Origin: Listeria monocytogenes
GTDB lineage: Bacteria; Bacillota; Bacilli; Lactobacillales; Listeriaceae
Reading direction: 5' to 3'
NCBI RefSeq assembly: GCF_041765605.1
Contig: NZ_CP168900.1
Coordinates: 1,256,001 to 1,320,000, forward strand
DNA length: 64,000 nt
Of the stretch, positions 9,232 to 14,092 are shown one piece after another; position 1 is the stretch's first letter, and the number at the start of each line of letters is the position of its first letter. The notes under the pieces were generated by a model. It was not told the DNA's origin. It ran no database searches and saw only the letters and a list, made by a program, of their open reading frames with translations. The position numbers and the translations under genes were made by a program.

Positions 9232-9326
9232 GTATAAAAAGGATACTTTTGCGATACTTTGTAAGCTAATAAATAAGCTAAAATGAAGATAACATCATTT
9301 TGTGGCTGTTTATAGCTGTTAAGCAC

Positions 9327-9354
9327 GTTTAAAAGCGTTTAAAAGATGTTTAAA
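9327..9354. repeat. Three tandem GTTTAAA repeats upstream of the accessory cassette
   Basis: GTTTAAA occurs at 9327, 9337 and 9348, close to one helical turn apart, in the 245-base gap between the lysis terminator and the next gene. The spacing suggests same-face protein binding (regulator or recombination arm sites); the ligand is unknown. Confidence 0.4.
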
Positions 9355-9440
9355 GTGATTTGGATTTCAAAAAAGGTTTACTTTTTAGCTAAATGTGTAT
9401 ATAGTTAATTAAAGAAATGTAAAATCCGGAGGAAATAACT

Positions 9441-9842
9441 ATGAGTAGGATAGCGTCATTTGTATGTTGTTTAGCTATAGAGCAAGATGATAATCAAATA
9501 AAAATTGTGAACCCTATCAATACAGTTAAATTAAAAAGTTTTCCTAATAATTTTTCGTTTATTATAAATTTCACTTTGGTTGATTTTGATTTTAATCCAG
9601 AAAATTTATTAAAGTTAACTATTAAAGACCCTTTTGATGAAACAGTATTTGATTCAGGAGAATTACCATATCCTGAAGGCTATGTAAATAATAACAAAAT
9701 CACAAATAGTATAAATATTGCCTTGAATTTGAATAACTTAACGATAGAAAACGTTGGGGAATATAATATTTTTATTAAAAGTCATGAAGAACAAATTGAC
9801 TCGTTCCCATTATATTTTGAGGAGGATGTTAGTCATGAATAA
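9441..9842 (+). CDS. Phage accessory protein, DUF6941-like
   Basis: A protein of 133 residues that begins MSRIASFVCCLAIEQ and reads as an all-beta protein, similar in layout to the DUF6941 family (short SFV-C start, a FP-x-x-FSF-x-I strand, then an extended sandwich). It starts behind CCGGAGG and overlaps the next gene by eight bases. It is first in a three-gene plus-strand cassette between the lysis terminator and the anti-CRISPR operon, a usual place for lysogenic conversion genes. No function can be assigned. Confidence 0.5.
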   Translation: MSRIASFVCCLAIEQDDNQIKIVNPINTVKLKSFPNNFSFIINFTLVDFDFNPENLLKLTIKDPFDETVFDSGELPYPEGYVNNNKITNSINIALNLNNLTIENVGEYNIFIKSHEEQIDSFPLYFEEDVSHE

Positions 9843-10164
9843 TAAAGCAGTGTTAGGTGGCGTTCTGTTTTTTACATTGATAAGTGTCCCCGCGCAGACT
9901 CCTAAACAGGTGAATTTTGTAAATCAAAAAAAAGAGGATTCAAATGGAAGTATTGTTTATCTAAATTACTGTATGAATGAGTATAACAATGTTCCTGTAT
10001 TAGAGATAAACCGAGGTAATTTGAATGCTGATGTGAGTGATGATTTATTAGGAAACCAGGTGAAATTAACTGATCGAGAATACGCTGAATATCAAAGTGC
10101 GATAAATGAGTACTATAATGAGAATGGTAGTAAGCTTTTTAGCTTAGAAAATTTTTATGCATAA
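9835..10164 (+). CDS. Small secreted or membrane-anchored phage accessory protein
   Basis: A protein of 109 residues starting at an ATG preceded by GAGGAGG inside the upstream gene; a longer in-frame start at 9754 lacks such a site. Residues 1-20 form one hydrophobic segment ending near VPAQT, which could be a signal peptide or membrane anchor. The rest is acidic and polar. It overlaps both neighbours by eight bases, implying a coupled operon. No family was recognised. Confidence 0.55.
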   Translation: MNNKAVLGGVLFFTLISVPAQTPKQVNFVNQKKEDSNGSIVYLNYCMNEYNNVPVLEINRGNLNADVSDDLLGNQVKLTDREYAEYQSAINEYYNENGSKLFSLENFYA

Positions 10165-10726
10165 TGATTTAGGTAATTATCTCAGTAGTGTTTTTCCAGG
10201 TATTGATTTCACCGATAAATCAAATGAAATAAAAAAAGCAATTAAACAATTTGATAAACTTGAAGGAAATAAATTTATCACTCATAACTGCATTACTCAT
10301 TTAGCTCAAGGAGATATTTTTAAAAATGTTCCATACATCCACTTTAACACTGATACAGGCAACTACATGAAAACTCTTGTTGATGCGATTCTAGTGTCAA
10401 ATACATGCGATGCATCTAGAAAAGAAAATTTAACCTTTGCTCCTGTATTGCCTATAGCCCTATTTAATGATAACGAATTATCTCATAATGAACTTAAAGC
10501 TAATAATAAATTTGCATTTCTATATATTCCTGATATAAGATTGCAAGACAAAATAATAGATTTTAATTCATTCTTTAGTTTTCCTCGAGAAACTTTTGAA
10601 TCTCTTTTAGATAATCAAAGAGTTGAAAAAAAATACTCTTTAATGTTAACAGGTTACTATTTATATATTACTAAATTAGTTACTTTATTGTGCAGACCTG
10701 AAAGCGAAGAAGTAATTAGAAGTTAA
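10157..10726 (+). CDS. Phage accessory protein of unknown function with NTCDAS motif
   Basis: A protein of 189 residues, third in the cassette. It has no membrane segment. It contains a short LVSNTCDASRKEN motif near residues 80-95, similar in form to the T-C-D-I/A-S motif seen in uncharacterised phage and defence-associated proteins, and a FLYIPDIRLQDKIIDF segment near 128-143. The gene ends at a strong terminator. A superinfection or host-interaction role is inference from position alone. Confidence 0.5.
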   Translation: MHNDLGNYLSSVFPGIDFTDKSNEIKKAIKQFDKLEGNKFITHNCITHLAQGDIFKNVPYIHFNTDTGNYMKTLVDAILVSNTCDASRKENLTFAPVLPIALFNDNELSHNELKANNKFAFLYIPDIRLQDKIIDFNSFFSFPRETFESLLDNQRVEKKYSLMLTGYYLYITKLVTLLCRPESEEVIRS

Positions 10727-10730
10727 CCAA

Positions 10731-10758
10731 CCCTAACCACACGTTAGGGCTTTTTTTA
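10731..10758 (+). terminator. Terminator of the three-gene accessory cassette
   Basis: A perfect seven-base stem CCCTAAC/GTTAGGG with a five-base loop is followed by a run of seven or more T, four bases after the last stop of the cassette. Confidence 0.85.
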
Positions 10759-10761
10759 TGC

Positions 10762-10791
10762 AAAAAAACACGCTAAACATAAGCTTAGCGT
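10762..10791 (-). terminator. Terminator of the anti-CRISPR operon
   Basis: On the minus strand the stem ACGCTAA/TTAGCGT is followed by seven T. It lies just beyond the stop of acrIIA1, so two converging operons are separated by back-to-back terminators. Confidence 0.8.
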
Positions 10792-10796
10792 AATTG

Positions 10797-11246
10797 TTAT
10801 ATCAATTCGTTTTTCTTCTCTTTTAACACAGTGATAGCATTTTCCAGTGCTTTTCGAACATCTTTTTCTATATCTACATGCGTTTCATTTTCAAACCTAT
10901 TAAATGTAAAAGGAAGCACTTCAATATTCGCACATTCAAACTCTTTAATTAAGCAGTACAACTCAAATTCTTGTGCAGGAAATGACAACTTATACTTATC
11001 TAATAAGTGTTTAAATCCAGCAAGATCGTCATAACTTTTTTCCAATTCTGCTAGCTCGATGAAAACATCAAATGTAGATATTCCTGCACACATTGAGAGT
11101 GCGCGCAAGAATGAAACAGAATACTTGTTTAACTCTTTTTTATTGTAATCGTTCAATGTGTTTTGCGAGATACCAGTCAGTTTGCTTAACTGATACCTCG
11201 TTTTACTGTGTTTTTTTAAGAATTCATCTAATAGTTTTATTGACAT
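10797..11246 (-). CDS. acrIIA1: Anti-CRISPR AcrIIA1, Cas9 inhibitor and acr autorepressor
   Basis: A protein of 149 residues, the usual AcrIIA1 length. An N-terminal helix-turn-helix domain (KHSKTRYQLSKLTGISQNTL, about residues 13-32) is followed by a C-terminal domain with DDLAGFKHLLDKYKLSFPAQ and EVLPFTFNRFEN, which I recognise as hallmark AcrIIA1 stretches. Known role: the C-terminal domain binds type II-A Cas9 and promotes its loss during lysogeny, and the N-terminal domain represses the acr promoter through a palindrome. It is last in the operon, four bases after acrIIA2. Identification is from remembered sequence similarity. Confidence 0.92.
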   Translation of the reverse strand: MSIKLLDEFLKKHSKTRYQLSKLTGISQNTLNDYNKKELNKYSVSFLRALSMCAGISTFDVFIELAELEKSYDDLAGFKHLLDKYKLSFPAQEFELYCLIKEFECANIEVLPFTFNRFENETHVDIEKDVRKALENAITVLKEKKNELI

Positions 11247-11250
11247 ATTT

Positions 11251-11601
11251 TTAGTTCAACTCACTTTTTATAATTACTTCTTGTTTATCGTGTTTTTCCT
11301 TATCTTCATCTGTAGCTAGTTTAAAATCATCTTCATTAGTTACTACAAAGTTAATATAATAAGTTTCATCTTCAATATCCAAACGTGTCGAGTGAACTAA
11401 AGTTTCATCTAAATATAGCTTGTCATCATCGAGCAGGCAAAGTGCTACTGCATACGCTTCATTTTTTGTAATAACTAAGTAGTCAGAGTCATTAAGTAAA
11501 TCCTGCGAAAACGCTGGTGTTTGTTCTAATTCTTTACTGATAATTGCTTCAAATTCATTCATCGCGTCATAATATCTTTTTTGTGCTGTTGTTATTGTCA
11601 T
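11251..11601 (-). CDS. acrIIA2: Anti-CRISPR AcrIIA2-family Cas9 inhibitor
   Basis: A protein of 116 residues from the second start, which reads MTITTAQKRYYDAMNEF and sits at good distance from AAAAGGA; a GTG nine bases upstream is less likely. The segments DSDYLVITKNEAYAVALC, DLYLDE-type and the C-terminal EVIIKSELN match AcrIIA2, including the acidic character typical of a protein that blocks PAM recognition by Cas9-sgRNA. It is slightly shorter than the 123-residue reference I remember because of a shorter loop before KLYLDETLV. It lies between acrIIA3 and acrIIA1. Confidence 0.88.
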   Translation of the reverse strand: MTITTAQKRYYDAMNEFEAIISKELEQTPAFSQDLLNDSDYLVITKNEAYAVALCLLDDDKLYLDETLVHSTRLDIEDETYYINFVVTNEDDFKLATDEDKEKHDKQEVIIKSELN

Positions 11602-11632
11602 TTTAATCACATTCCTTTTCTATAATATAATT

Positions 11633-12010
11633 TTAAGCTGCTGTTTGTGGAAACAAGTCATTGTGTAGTTTAACTGCTTTCATTGCACAAGCCCAAACAC
11701 TTAAGCCGAAATGCTGTTTAGTTTCATCTTTTACACTAGTGAATTTTTCATCATCTGAAATATTAAAACGTAATCCTAGTTTTCTTTCAGCCCAATTCCA
11801 AGCTTTAAGTTCTTCGCTTTTAGAGATGTGTTTGATCTCTTTTTCTACTTCTTTAACTTCTTCTTTTGCTTTAGACCAAGCGGCTTTTAAACATACGGAG
11901 AAAGTTTTTTCTTTGTCTGTGTAACTTACCCATTCGATATCACTTAACCAAACATTGCTATCAGTGAACCAGTTCCAAGCTTGTTTCATAATTTCTGCCT
12001 TGTTAAACAT
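11633..12010 (-). CDS. acrIIA3: Anti-CRISPR AcrIIA3-family protein
   Basis: A protein of 125 residues beginning MFNKAEIMKQAWNWFTDSN, with WLSDIEWVSYTDKEKTFSVC and a C-terminal FGLSVWACAMKAVKLHN, matching AcrIIA3 in length and in these Trp-rich segments. AcrIIA3 was reported with AcrIIA1, 2 and 4 from Listeria prophages as a Cas9 inhibitor with some toxicity when overexpressed. It is the first gene after the regulated promoter, with a GGGAGG ribosome site. Confidence 0.85.
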   Translation of the reverse strand: MFNKAEIMKQAWNWFTDSNVWLSDIEWVSYTDKEKTFSVCLKAAWSKAKEEVKEVEKEIKHISKSEELKAWNWAERKLGLRFNISDDEKFTSVKDETKQHFGLSVWACAMKAVKLHNDLFPQTAA

Positions 12011-12043
12011 TGTGTATTCCTCCCGTTCCTTTACTATATATAT

Positions 12044-12072
12044 ATTATACTACGAATAATCGTAGTAGTCAA
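12044..12072 (-). promoter_or_regulatory. acr operon promoter with AcrIIA1-type palindromic operator
   Basis: On the minus strand there is TTGACT (12067-12072), a 17-base spacer and TATAAT (12044-12049). The spacer coincides with an inverted repeat, ACTACGA-TTAT-TCGTAGT (12049-12066), with seven-base perfect arms. Listeria acr promoters are known to carry such a palindrome bound by the AcrIIA1 helix-turn-helix domain. The first gene, acrIIA3, starts 34 bases downstream of the -10 box. Confidence 0.88.
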
Positions 12073-12097
12073 TAGTTTTATTAAATTTATTTTAAAA

Positions 12098-12125
12098 TAA
12101 AAACCCCGAAATTTTTCATTCAGGG
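12098..12125 (-). terminator. Terminator after the small leftward phage gene
   Basis: On the minus strand an imperfect hairpin (CCCTGAA against TTTCGGGG) is followed by TTTTT. It overlaps the stop of the 69-residue gene and insulates that gene from the acr promoter. Confidence 0.65.
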
Positions 12126-12325
12126 CTATTGTCTAATGAAATTATTTCAGTTTTTCTTTGCTTTATTGCAATTTCTAGTTCTTCCAAGTCTTCTAAAGTG
12201 GCTTTTTTCTTAATAAAAGATCGCGCAGCTGAACGGCTTTTTAAATAGTTTGCATGTTCTTTGTTCTTGCTTTGCCATTCCTTATTTGCTTTCAACTGCG
12301 CGTCAGAGGTCGTTTTTTTCGTCAT
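12116..12325 (-). CDS. Small charged phage protein, function unknown
   Basis: A protein of 69 residues, highly charged, starting MTKKTTSDAQLKANKEWQSKN, then SRSAARSFIKKKATLEDLEELE. I recall similar short proteins from Listeria and other Firmicute phages and plasmids; a nucleic-acid-binding or regulatory role would be a guess. It is preceded by AGGAAG and lies just downstream of a 46-residue membrane peptide gene on the same strand. Confidence 0.6.
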   Translation of the reverse strand: MTKKTTSDAQLKANKEWQSKNKEHANYLKSRSAARSFIKKKATLEDLEELEIAIKQRKTEIISLDNSPE

Positions 12326-12331
12326 AATTAA

Positions 12332-12472
12332 TCACTTCCTAATTTTTATTAAGTACACTAGACAAGCTAATGTAGTCAGTATAGCAATGATGGTCAATGC
12401 TATATTCTGAAAGTAACTAGCGAGTCCGTTAACACAGATAACAATTAATATAACCCAGATATATTTATTCAT
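12332..12472 (-). CDS. 46-residue membrane peptide
   Basis: An open frame from ATG at 12472 gives MNKYIWVILIVICVNGLASY followed by a second hydrophobic stretch (about residues 25-42) and a KIRK end, so a two-pass membrane peptide. It ends seven bases before the next leftward gene. It is short and the ribosome site is weak, so its reality rests on composition and operon position. Confidence 0.45.
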   Translation of the reverse strand: MNKYIWVILIVICVNGLASYFQNIALTIIAILTTLACLVYLIKIRK

Positions 12473-12530
12473 AATTTATGAAAGACGTGATATACTTTTA
12501 ATAGAGGGAGGGGAGTTTCACCCCTCTGAT

Positions 12531-12632
12531 TTAGCGGTTCTTGTCTTTATCATTCTTGTGTATTGTTGTCAGCGCTACTACAAGAGTGATAATTTCAAGG
12601 ACTGTTTTTATTTCCTCTAAAACATCTTTCAC
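12531..12632 (-). CDS. 33-residue holin-like / type I toxin-like peptide
   Basis: A GTG-started frame encodes MKDVLEEIKTVLEIITLVVA followed by LTTIHKNDKDKNR: one amphipathic/hydrophobic helix and a charged tail, the layout of putative holin-like toxins and Fst-like type I toxins of Firmicutes. A strong promoter lies immediately upstream, and a GC-rich hairpin (12508-12528) lies at the 3' end. No clear Shine-Dalgarno site is seen, and the antisense partner RNA is not proven. Confidence 0.4.
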   Translation of the reverse strand: MKDVLEEIKTVLEIITLVVALTTIHKNDKDKNR

Positions 12633-12656
12633 TTTCTCAACTCTTTCTATATTTAT

Positions 12657-12685
12657 ATTATAATACATGTATTATATAATTGCAA
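12657..12685 (-). promoter_or_regulatory. Leftward promoter overlapped by an 18-bp palindrome
   Basis: On the minus strand TTGCAA (12680-12685), a 17-base spacer and TATAAT (12657-12662) form a near-consensus promoter. The perfect palindrome TATAATACATGTATTATA (12659-12676) overlaps the -10 box, so a repressor site is plausible. It would drive the 33-residue peptide and perhaps the genes after it. Confidence 0.6.
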
Positions 12686-12697
12686 GTGTTTTAAAAA

Positions 12698-12718
12698 TTT
12701 GTGGCATGATTTGTGGCA
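12698..12718. repeat. Paired TTTGTGGCA sites, candidate integrase arm sites
   Basis: TTTGTGGCA occurs twice, 12 bases apart (12698 and 12710), at the prophage side of the candidate attachment core. Related copies occur at 12882, 12891 (TTTGTGGTA) and 19405. Short direct repeats flanking a core are typical of tyrosine-integrase arm sites. Confidence 0.45.
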
Positions 12719-12753
12719 ATCGCATTATAAATGGCTATATATCAACACATATT

Positions 12754-12769
12754 AATCCCTCTCAGGACG
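12754..12769. other. Candidate prophage attR core resembling a tRNA 3' end
   Basis: AATCCCTCTCAGGACG looks like the 3' half of a T-arm plus acceptor stem of a tRNA gene, and tRNA-Arg is a known Listeria prophage site (phage PSA). It lies just after the last phage-like gene and paired short repeats, and is followed by a hairpin terminator as a tRNA gene would be. The matching attL and tRNA body must lie outside the window, so this is an inference. Confidence 0.5.
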
Positions 12770-12787
12770 TTAATAGCTATATTAAAT

Positions 12788-12890
12788 AAATCTCTAAAAC
12801 GTTGAAAACCCTTGATACTAAAGGGTGGATGAACGGGTTGGAGATTTTTTTATCTTATAATACCCGTTTTATTCCATTGTTTTTGTGGCA
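12788..12890 (+). repeat. Island-flanking repeat, copy A, containing a terminator hairpin
   Basis: An imperfect long hairpin (AAATCTCTAAAACGTT against AACGGGTTGGAGATTT) with an inner CCCTT/AAGGG stem ends in TTTTTTT (12788-12851). It is followed by a segment ending in TTCCATTGTTTTTGTGGCA. The whole segment recurs in diverged form at 19313-19413 in the same orientation. Confidence 0.75.
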
Positions 12891-13074
12891 TTTGTGGTAT
12901 TTTGATTCGTTTTTAGAGTGGAAAAACATCTGCTTTGGACTGATTATGTTGACGCAATTTAGAACTTAAATGACTGTAATAGTATAATGTCGTACTAACA
13001 TCTGCAGAAACGTATATAATACGCCCATATTTATTAAATTAGATTATCATAACCAAAATCTAATTCAACAAAAA

Positions 13075-13198: not shown

Positions 13199-13639
13199 CT
13201 ATTCATCAGACAATAAGTCTTCAGGGGATATTTGGTATTTATTTTGCTTTGTTATATCAGCTCCATTTTCCAATAAAACAGCTATAGATTTAGCTTCTTT
13301 AGGTAGCTCCATTGCTGCACGCCATAACGGAGTATTCCCATTACTATCTTCTGCATCAACCATTACTCCTTTTGAAATCAAGTACTCAACTATTTCAGCA
13401 TAGTCATGCATCGCAGCTAGATGTAATGCTGTCATTCCATTTTTATCCTGTAAATTCAAATTACTACCTTTTTTAATTAAATATTCGATAACGCTCATTT
13501 TTCTTTCAACGACTGCTGACATTAACAAAGAACGATTATCTCGATCCACACTATCTATACCATATTTAGTTAGAAAATCGTCAATCTTAGAAAAGTTATT
13601 ACTTAGTAGTACTGAATATAACTCATTTTCATTAAACAT
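13199..13639 (-). CDS. Ankyrin-repeat protein
   Basis: A protein of 146 residues from ATG at 13639, chosen because AGAGGTG sits just upstream; the GTG nine bases earlier lies inside that site. It contains about three ankyrin repeats with D-x-x-G-x-T-A/P-L-x-x-A motifs (DKNGMTALHLAAMHDYAEIV and DSNGNTPLWRAAM) plus degenerate caps. Ankyrin proteins mediate protein binding. There is no signal peptide. It stands alone between the prophage end and the transposon remnant, with no obvious partner. Confidence 0.75.
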   Translation of the reverse strand: MFNENELYSVLLSNNFSKIDDFLTKYGIDSVDRDNRSLLMSAVVERKMSVIEYLIKKGSNLNLQDKNGMTALHLAAMHDYAEIVEYLISKGVMVDAEDSNGNTPLWRAAMELPKEAKSIAVLLENGADITKQNKYQISPEDLLSDE

Positions 13640-14092
13640 ATGTTGCACCTCTTTGTATTATTTTTTCTTTGCTGTTGGTTTCCTTATATGAGTTTTTATA
13701 ACCAATTTATACGTACTAAATCTCTCGAATTTTACTGATTATCTTATACTATACCAATTATTTTGCAATTTTAGTAGGTTTTCTAATTTTTCAATAAGTG
13801 TATAGATATCTTGATTCTTGTTTTCTTCCATAATATAACAAAATAAAACTCAATTAAAAAGCGTACTTAATAGTATGTTTTTTTTATTTTTATGACCCAA
13901 AAGAAAATTCTAATTGTAGTAGTTATGCAAGCTATAAAAAATTTGCATCCGTTCTTTGACAACTGAATAAGAAGACGCTCCAATACGATTCAATTTTTAA
14001 TGAGCAAGAAAAAACACAACCACTTCTGCTACGGGTGAAATGAGCAGAAGTAAAAAGTACATTGACTAAAAACAAAAGGGAGAAACAGACAA
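13640..14092. other. Gene-free stretch with leader hairpin before the adhesin gene
   Basis: No open frame is convincing here. A perfect nine-base inverted repeat ACTTCTGCT/AGCAGAAGT with a 12-base loop (14022-14051) lies 42 bases before the adhesin start and is not followed by a T-run, so it may be a leader structure. A TTGACA at 13956 could be a -35 box but no good -10 box follows. A ribosome site AAAGGGAGA precedes the ATG at 14093. Confidence 0.4.

Follow-up and report, generated by a model that had tools for sequence, protein, structure and literature searches.

Phage A118 of Listeria carries the acr locus gp30-gp29-gp28, whose products are labelled in RefSeq as AcrIIA3, AcrIIA2 family and anti-CRISPR AcrIIA1, respectively. 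AcrIIA1 controls its own operon, for which Osuna et al. 2020 is reportedly the primary source. The same three families occur, in the order acrIIA2-acrIIA3-acrIIA1, in L. monocytogenes SLCC2482, the strain from which AcrIIA3 (also 125 aa) was reported (PMC6538845, PMC6739104). AcrIIA2 blocks the DNA binding of Cas9 (PMC6538845), and the binding of AcrIIA1 to the HNH domain leads to Cas9 degradation (PMC13131331); both Cas9 binding and degradation were abolished in the T114A/F115A double mutant of AcrIIA1 (PMC10732428). For AcrIIA3, the listing in PMC6538845 gives no mode of action. PMC9410906 describes an inverted repeat conserved in the core promoter as well as the regulation of the operon by the HTH protein AcrIIA1, and PMC10901769 cites Osuna et al. 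2020 for Cas9 sensing.

An A118-type acr operon in a Listeria monocytogenes prophage

The window, i.e., the whole stretch of DNA analysed here (64,000 nucleotides), corresponds to C1:1256001-1320000 of a one-contig genome of 2,979,728 bases. A prophage of ~44 kb extends from about 1224.9 kb of this genome to ~12.9 kb of the window, and a 402-aa minus-strand ORF near 1224.9 kb was taken, by its position only, as the integrase. Near the right end of the prophage, the minus strand from 12010 to 10797 holds three ORFs of 125, 116 and 149 aa in the order acrIIA3-acrIIA2-acrIIA1:

11633..12010, minus strand: acrIIA3, 125 aa, first gene; NCBIfam NF033948, E 1e-53, 180.4 bits (cut-off 70); 99% identity with A118 gp30
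11251..11601, minus strand: acrIIA2, 116 aa, second gene; NCBIfam NF033945, E 7.8e-53, 177.7 bits (cut-off 40); PDB 6ifo/6mcb AcrIIA2, E 3.4e-30; 98% identity with A118 gp29
10797..11246, minus strand: acrIIA1, 149 aa, last gene; PDB 5y69/5y6a, E 4e-74; 97.3% identity with A118 AcrIIA1
12754..12970, no strand assigned: inferred right prophage end, an imperfect repeat shared with genome 1224853-1225047, beside the 402-aa ORF

The first-pass annotation had read these three adjacent leftward genes as AcrIIA3, AcrIIA2 and AcrIIA1 and had proposed protein searches against the known families; the family scores and the PDB match bear it out for each of the three products. The start of acrIIA2 may be placed at the ATG at 11601 (116 aa) or at a GTG at 11610 (119 aa), and its product also matches the solved homologue 6mcc in the PDB sequence search. 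The AcrIIA3 sequence matched no solved structure in the PDB. AcrIIA1, present as a single copy in the host genome, consists of an N-terminal HTH domain (Pfam HTH_26, residues 6-47) and a C-terminal domain, and its alignment with 5y69/5y6a spans the full length (residues 1-149), with 48 of 65 residues identical to 5y69 in residues 1-65 and 73 of 84 in residues 66-149. Of four residues tentatively regarded as key in AcrIIA1 (L10, T16, R48 and L74), the first three are present, and position 74 is D in both the window protein and 5y69. T114 and F115 are both conserved. The entry 5Y6A is given as AcrIIA1 in the list of PMC6538845. The absence of AcrIIA4, also claimed by the first-pass annotation, holds for the operon, all three genes of which belong to other families; the eight ORFs scanned in and beside it gave no AcrIIA4 match with a library that is not confirmed to include an AcrIIA4 model.

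The closest named phages with a complete acr locus are A118 (95.4% DNA identity over 1404 query bases) and, equally close, phage 184 (95.7%). A118 shares with the window the gene order and sizes, the promoter frame, the operator and the terminators. It differs in its −10 region (TATAGT instead of TATAAT) and in what follows on the promoter side, where A118 has its integrase gene, whereas the prophage of the window ends there after three small ORFs (12116-12668). In the viral contigs L009 and L029 (IMG/VR), which may be the same genome or a near relative, all three Acr proteins are 100% identical. With FHC15313 and LP-101, a larger part of the query aligns, at a lower identity (85.8%), and both have the operon and operator in common with the window; in their loci, AcrIIA2 is 52% identical, a second operator and an extra 190-aa gene are present, and CRISPR-repeat-like elements lie beside the locus.

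The locus belongs to an A118-type Listeria prophage and is its anti-Cas9 operon. The system is already known and well studied as a counter-defence, and the operon in itself is a further copy of it. We consider it highly probable that, taken as a whole, the locus is an A118-type operon that inhibits Cas9, that AcrIIA1 feeds back on it through a palindrome in its promoter, and that the type I-B spacer directed against it is harmless in a Cas9-less host. Judging from the published work on these families, the strong promoter would drive the synthesis of AcrIIA3, AcrIIA2 and AcrIIA1; AcrIIA2 would block Cas9, and the C-terminal domain of AcrIIA1 would bind the HNH domain of Cas9, leading to the loss of Cas9. 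The N-terminal HTH domain of AcrIIA1 would then bind the palindrome in the promoter spacer, exclude the RNA polymerase and turn the operon down.

Cas9, the type I-B array and a spacer against acrIIA2

Does the host contain a Cas9 on which this operon could act? The first-pass annotation predicted that this strain, or its relatives, carries or once met a type II-A Cas9. For the relatives, this agrees with our search, in which TIGR01865 (Cas9) matched 15 of 24 congeners; for the strain itself it does not, as the same search gave no match in the one-contig 2.98-Mb host genome. TIGR01865 was used in place of Cas9_REC PF16592, which matched no control genome. A type II-A repeat, searched for without a positive control, was not found in the host within 3 mismatches. 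On our reading, the host probably has no Cas9 for the operon to act on, unlike SLCC2482, whose genome is listed with a complete CRISPR-Cas system and self-targeting.

What the host does contain is a type I-B CRISPR-Cas locus near 559 kb (C1:543001-563000; L172), with cas6, cas8b, cas7, cas5, cas3 and cas2 around a piece of cas1; family matches were obtained for cas6, cas8b, cas7 and cas3. Its array has 27 spacers, and a separate rliB array, located by Rfam RF01471 (RF01461 is rli24 and was uninformative), has 5, giving 32 spacers in all. The repeat type and the CCA PAM are those of the Listeria CRISPR-I and RliB-CRISPR systems, for which spacers against a strain's own prophages have already been reported (PMC3886909). 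In contrast to those systems, the host array targets acrIIA2 itself, only the last 98 residues of cas1 are left, and cas5 is prematurely stopped. A C-terminal cas1 piece is also all that is left for type I-B in six congeners (G002, G003, G005, G008, G016 and G022). At 226 codons, the open frame of the host cas5 is the shortest among ten compared within the genus (251-278 in the others), and its premature TGA comes 50 residues early: all eight aligned relatives read on to 274-278, and the frame past the TGA matches residues 228-276 in three of these relatives with 100% identity. With this stop, the interference genes of the type I-B locus are not all intact, and the truncated Cas5 may keep some function.

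The target of the array within the operon is:

11301..11336, plus strand: protospacer in acrIIA2 of spacer 24 of the type I-B array, 36 nt, 34/36 matching, mismatches at 7 and 23; flank 11298-11300 is CCT, whereas the PAM is CCA

Spacer 18 matches a second site in the same prophage, outside the window (left part, L170:11195-11231), at 32 of 37 bases, with 5 mismatches and a CCA flank. The 190-aa gene that adjoins acrIIA1 in LP-101 is matched by spacer 13 at 35 of 37 bases, with no gap in the first 33 and again with a CCA flank. Weaker spacer matches (E 0.002 and above) were taken as chance. A perfect source of spacer 24 was found neither in the viral contigs nor in 60 of the 63 phage records listed, among which its best identity was about 94.6%. 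We found no earlier report of a type I-B spacer against acrIIA2 in the main texts searched, mostly those of open-access papers.

The published PAM, CCA (PMC3886909), flanks all seven protospacers examined in named phages, where each spacer was represented by a single chosen one. For a wider set, we took the arrays near the I-B locus in ten genus genomes, including the host's own; nine gave 271 spacers and one (G010) none, and 26 of the 271 mapped, with no more than 6 mismatches, to six phages that carry acr loci. Their best matches are flanked by CCA in 16 cases, CCT in 5 (one a perfect match), CCG in 2 and other triplets in 3. As CCT occurs at 5 of 26, once with a perfect match, this flank may be one that is tolerated, or it may mark an escape. 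The acr loci are not enriched in type I-B spacer targets: 2 of the 26, both from the host's own genome, fall in acr regions (bounds set by the analyst) that make up 5.8% of the bases.

The first-pass annotation held that a self-targeting spacer against this prophage could be tolerated, and proposed searching the rest of the genome for cas9 and self-matching spacers. The spacer exists, directed against acrIIA2, and cas9 was not found; because the spacer sits in a type I-B array, the AcrIIA inhibitors of Cas9 need not be the reason for its tolerance. Neither spacer 24 (CCT, 34/36) nor spacer 18 (CCA, 32/37) combines a consensus PAM with a perfect protospacer. Spacer 24 is probably harmless because of CCT in place of CCA, the two mismatches and the premature stop in cas5, and these features may suffice for tolerance. 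Against the argument from the PAM, besides the CCT flanks among the 26 mapped spacers, a 2014 survey reported self-targeted PAMs near the consensus and self-targeting that is not necessarily costly, with prophage self-targeting by Listeria arrays already known (PMC3886909).

Could the operon instead shield the host against self-targeting by its type I-B system, with one of the AcrIIA proteins inhibiting type I-B as well? The spacer that matches acrIIA2 of the resident prophage would fit, as would the eight AcrIIA loci listed as conflicting because they occur in genomes with I-B self-targeting (PMC6739104), and strain RO15, with CRISPR-I, self-targeting and AcrIIA1/A2, whose authors predict that its Acrs inactivate its CRISPR-Cas (PMC7331262). 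However, the eight cases are ascribed by their authors to other Acrs, the statement on RO15 is a prediction rather than a test, and the acrIIA2 target has both the CCT flank and two mismatches and faces a truncated cas5. We regard such shielding as very unlikely. With a target that lacks the consensus PAM and a broken cas gene, no hidden Acr need be invoked here, and the host is one case of the published puzzle of AcrIIA loci beside type I-B self-targeting (PMC6739104) that can do without it.

The operator in the acr promoter and across loci

The regulatory sites around the operon are as follows:

12044..12072, minus strand: sigma-70-type promoter TTGACT-17-TATAAT (pattern and promoter scan)
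12048..12067, no strand assigned: operator palindrome TACTACGA-ATAA-TCGTAGTA filling the promoter spacer, 20 bp with 8-base arms; inner arms CTACG-N6-CGTAG
12019..12024, minus strand: Shine-Dalgarno-like GGGAGG of acrIIA3, read by eye
10769..10792, minus strand: intrinsic terminator of the acr operon (terminator scan; annotated at the same place in A118)
10731..10749, plus strand: intrinsic terminator of the convergent transcription unit (terminator scan; annotated in A118)
12102..12127, minus strand: terminator-like site that precedes the acr promoter and closes the upstream unit (terminator scan)

The TTGACT/TATAAT promoter with an exact 17-base spacer and the back-to-back terminators closing the operon, both described in the first-pass annotation, are found at 12072-12044 and at 10731-10749 (plus) and 10792-10769 (minus), respectively, the latter two matching those annotated in A118. 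The palindrome indeed coincides with the promoter spacer, but its arms are slightly longer than the seven bases given there. The promoter lies 33 bases before the start codon of acrIIA3 and has the top score among 22 promoter-like sites in 9300-12800 (shuffles average 18.9 sites). The window contains a single TTGAC..TATAAT promoter holding a palindrome with arms of at least 7 bases, and none of 200 dinucleotide shuffles contains one. The pattern CTACG-N6-CGTAG has a single place in the 2.98-Mb genome, the acr promoter; the same pattern written backwards, used as a control, also occurs once per strand, so that uniqueness alone proves little and is not significant by itself.

To see the operator in other genomes, 55 loci were fetched by similarity to AcrIIA1 or to the window DNA, irrespective of the operator; at least A118 (L001, L017) and LP-101 (L002, L051) are counted twice in this set. 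CTACG-N6-CGTAG stands upstream of acrIIA1 in 44 of the 55, and the other 11 are without promoter DNA: in ten (L011, L015, L016, L021, L024, L038, L040, L046, L050 and L055), the DNA ends before the promoter, and in L031, acrIIA1 lacks its first 12 residues at an apparent junction, with the operator absent. The CTACG arms are constant around a variable 6-nt centre (ATTATT, ATTATC, AATAAT, TATATT, GCGATT, GCCATT, GAGATT, GATATT or TTATAT), and the outer arm varies slightly, with TGCTACG instead of TACTACG in L008, L010, L034, L052 and L054. The operator accompanies two clearly different AcrIIA1 N-terminal domains, the neighbouring genes differ among the loci that bear it, and it is present in a Latilactobacillus sakei phage (L007) whose AcrIIA1 homologue is 34% identical.

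A reverse scan of viral contigs for TACTACG-N6-CGTAGTA gave 100 stretches, two of them (L018, L042) already in the set; the set examined consisted of 98 viral stretches and 2 loci found by a stricter pattern in genome contigs. The site lies in a promoter context in 36 of these 100, the remaining 64 being taken as chance, and an AcrIIA1 homologue is present in 32 of the 36. As the protein searches had already retrieved many of these 32 contigs, the reverse scan is not independent evidence. A protein search for AcrIIA1 in genome contigs, which detects close relatives only, found none, and the operator scan yielded a 40%-identical homologue (L167) that the protein search had missed. Being this well conserved (CTACG-N6-CGTAG within the TTGACT/TATAAT frame, with an AcrIIA1 homologue in 32 of 36), the operator is usable as a search key for anti-CRISPR loci, and it also points to untested genes.

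The four promoter-context loci without an AcrIIA1 homologue are L159, L068, L118 and L166. L159 is a 1-kb fragment whose 80-aa gene equals the one that comes first under the operator in L098, and L118 and L166 appear to be the same Oceanobacillus record. In L068 (10393-10587) and L118 (9438-9632), from other prophages, the operator precedes 64-aa HTH proteins without an AcrIIA1 match, with small membrane-like ORFs in between.

These HTH proteins raise the question of whether the palindrome serves another phage regulator, such as a cI/Cro-like repressor, with AcrIIA1 acting elsewhere. Other repressors are annotated in these phages, and the same operator does precede a different 64-aa HTH protein in L068 and L118/L166; yet these proteins look like solo repressors, the operator stays with AcrIIA1 in the 44 loci despite their differing neighbours, including the one with the 34%-identical homologue, and control of the operon by AcrIIA1 is published (PMC9410906). 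Another regulator at this site is, in our estimate, very unlikely, and the autorepressor reading of the palindrome is well supported at the level of sequence. It is also very unlikely that the operon has decayed or fallen silent: the lack of a Cas9 match in the host would fit such a remnant, but all three reading frames are intact, as are the promoter, operator and terminator, with 95-99% identity to A118.

A second operator and further candidate counter-defence genes

In L002/L051, L004, L006, L028, L030, L032 and L033, a second copy of the operator begins 13 nt past the acrIIA1 stop codon. It precedes a 190-aa protein in the five loci checked (201 aa with an upstream start in L028); the gene lies at L051:4518-5090, with homologues in L002, L004, L006, L028, L030, L032, L033 and L216. 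In all six viral loci returned by a search with the 190-aa protein, its gene starts about 55 bases after the operator. The protein matched no family in PHROGs, NCBIfam or PADLOC and had one sub-threshold match in Pfam.

I-B repeat-like elements lie beside the acr operon in LP-101-type loci. They occur, singly or in pairs and with a terminator-like hairpin behind them, in L002, L004, L006, L018, L020, L022, L023, L028, L030, L032, L033, L052, L098 and L144 and are candidate RNA anti-CRISPRs; the RNA anti-CRISPRs of PMC10651486 resemble them, and in the legend of Fig. 3d there, L. monocytogenes appears among the cases of racr candidates colocalised with acr genes. In the window, no solitary CRISPR-like repeat was found beside the acr genes in a search for I-B repeats with up to 7 substitutions.

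Tentatively, and with somewhat more doubt than belief, we suggest that AcrIIA1 might be the master repressor of a small regulon rather than of a single operon. In LP-101-type phages, the second operator would drive the 190-aa protein as a further counter-defence protein in the same burst. The I-B spacers against the 190-aa gene and acrIIA2 would mean that a Cas9-independent CRISPR type has sampled the anti-Cas9 region, and the loss of the PAM by the phage and of the cas5 end by the host would be two marks of this conflict.

Several neighbouring genes were noted in passing. The first genes of the AcrIIA1-homologue operons in Latilactobacillus (L007:339-956 and L167:3792-4403) encode proteins of 203-205 aa with no family above the cut-off and are candidate anti-CRISPRs; in L167, an AbiH-like gene lies downstream. 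Between the endolysin gene and the acr operon, the window has three plus-strand ORFs at 9441-10726 (DUF6941, an unassigned ORF and phrog_4575), where A118 has gp26 and an acetyltransferase, making this slot one of variable cargo. Just beyond the inferred prophage end, an ankyrin-repeat protein is encoded at 13199-13648 on the minus strand. In L033 (2830-5440), the acrIIA3-A2-A1 operon occurs as a tandem duplicate with 1270 of 1306 bases identical (97%), which may be real or an effect of assembly.
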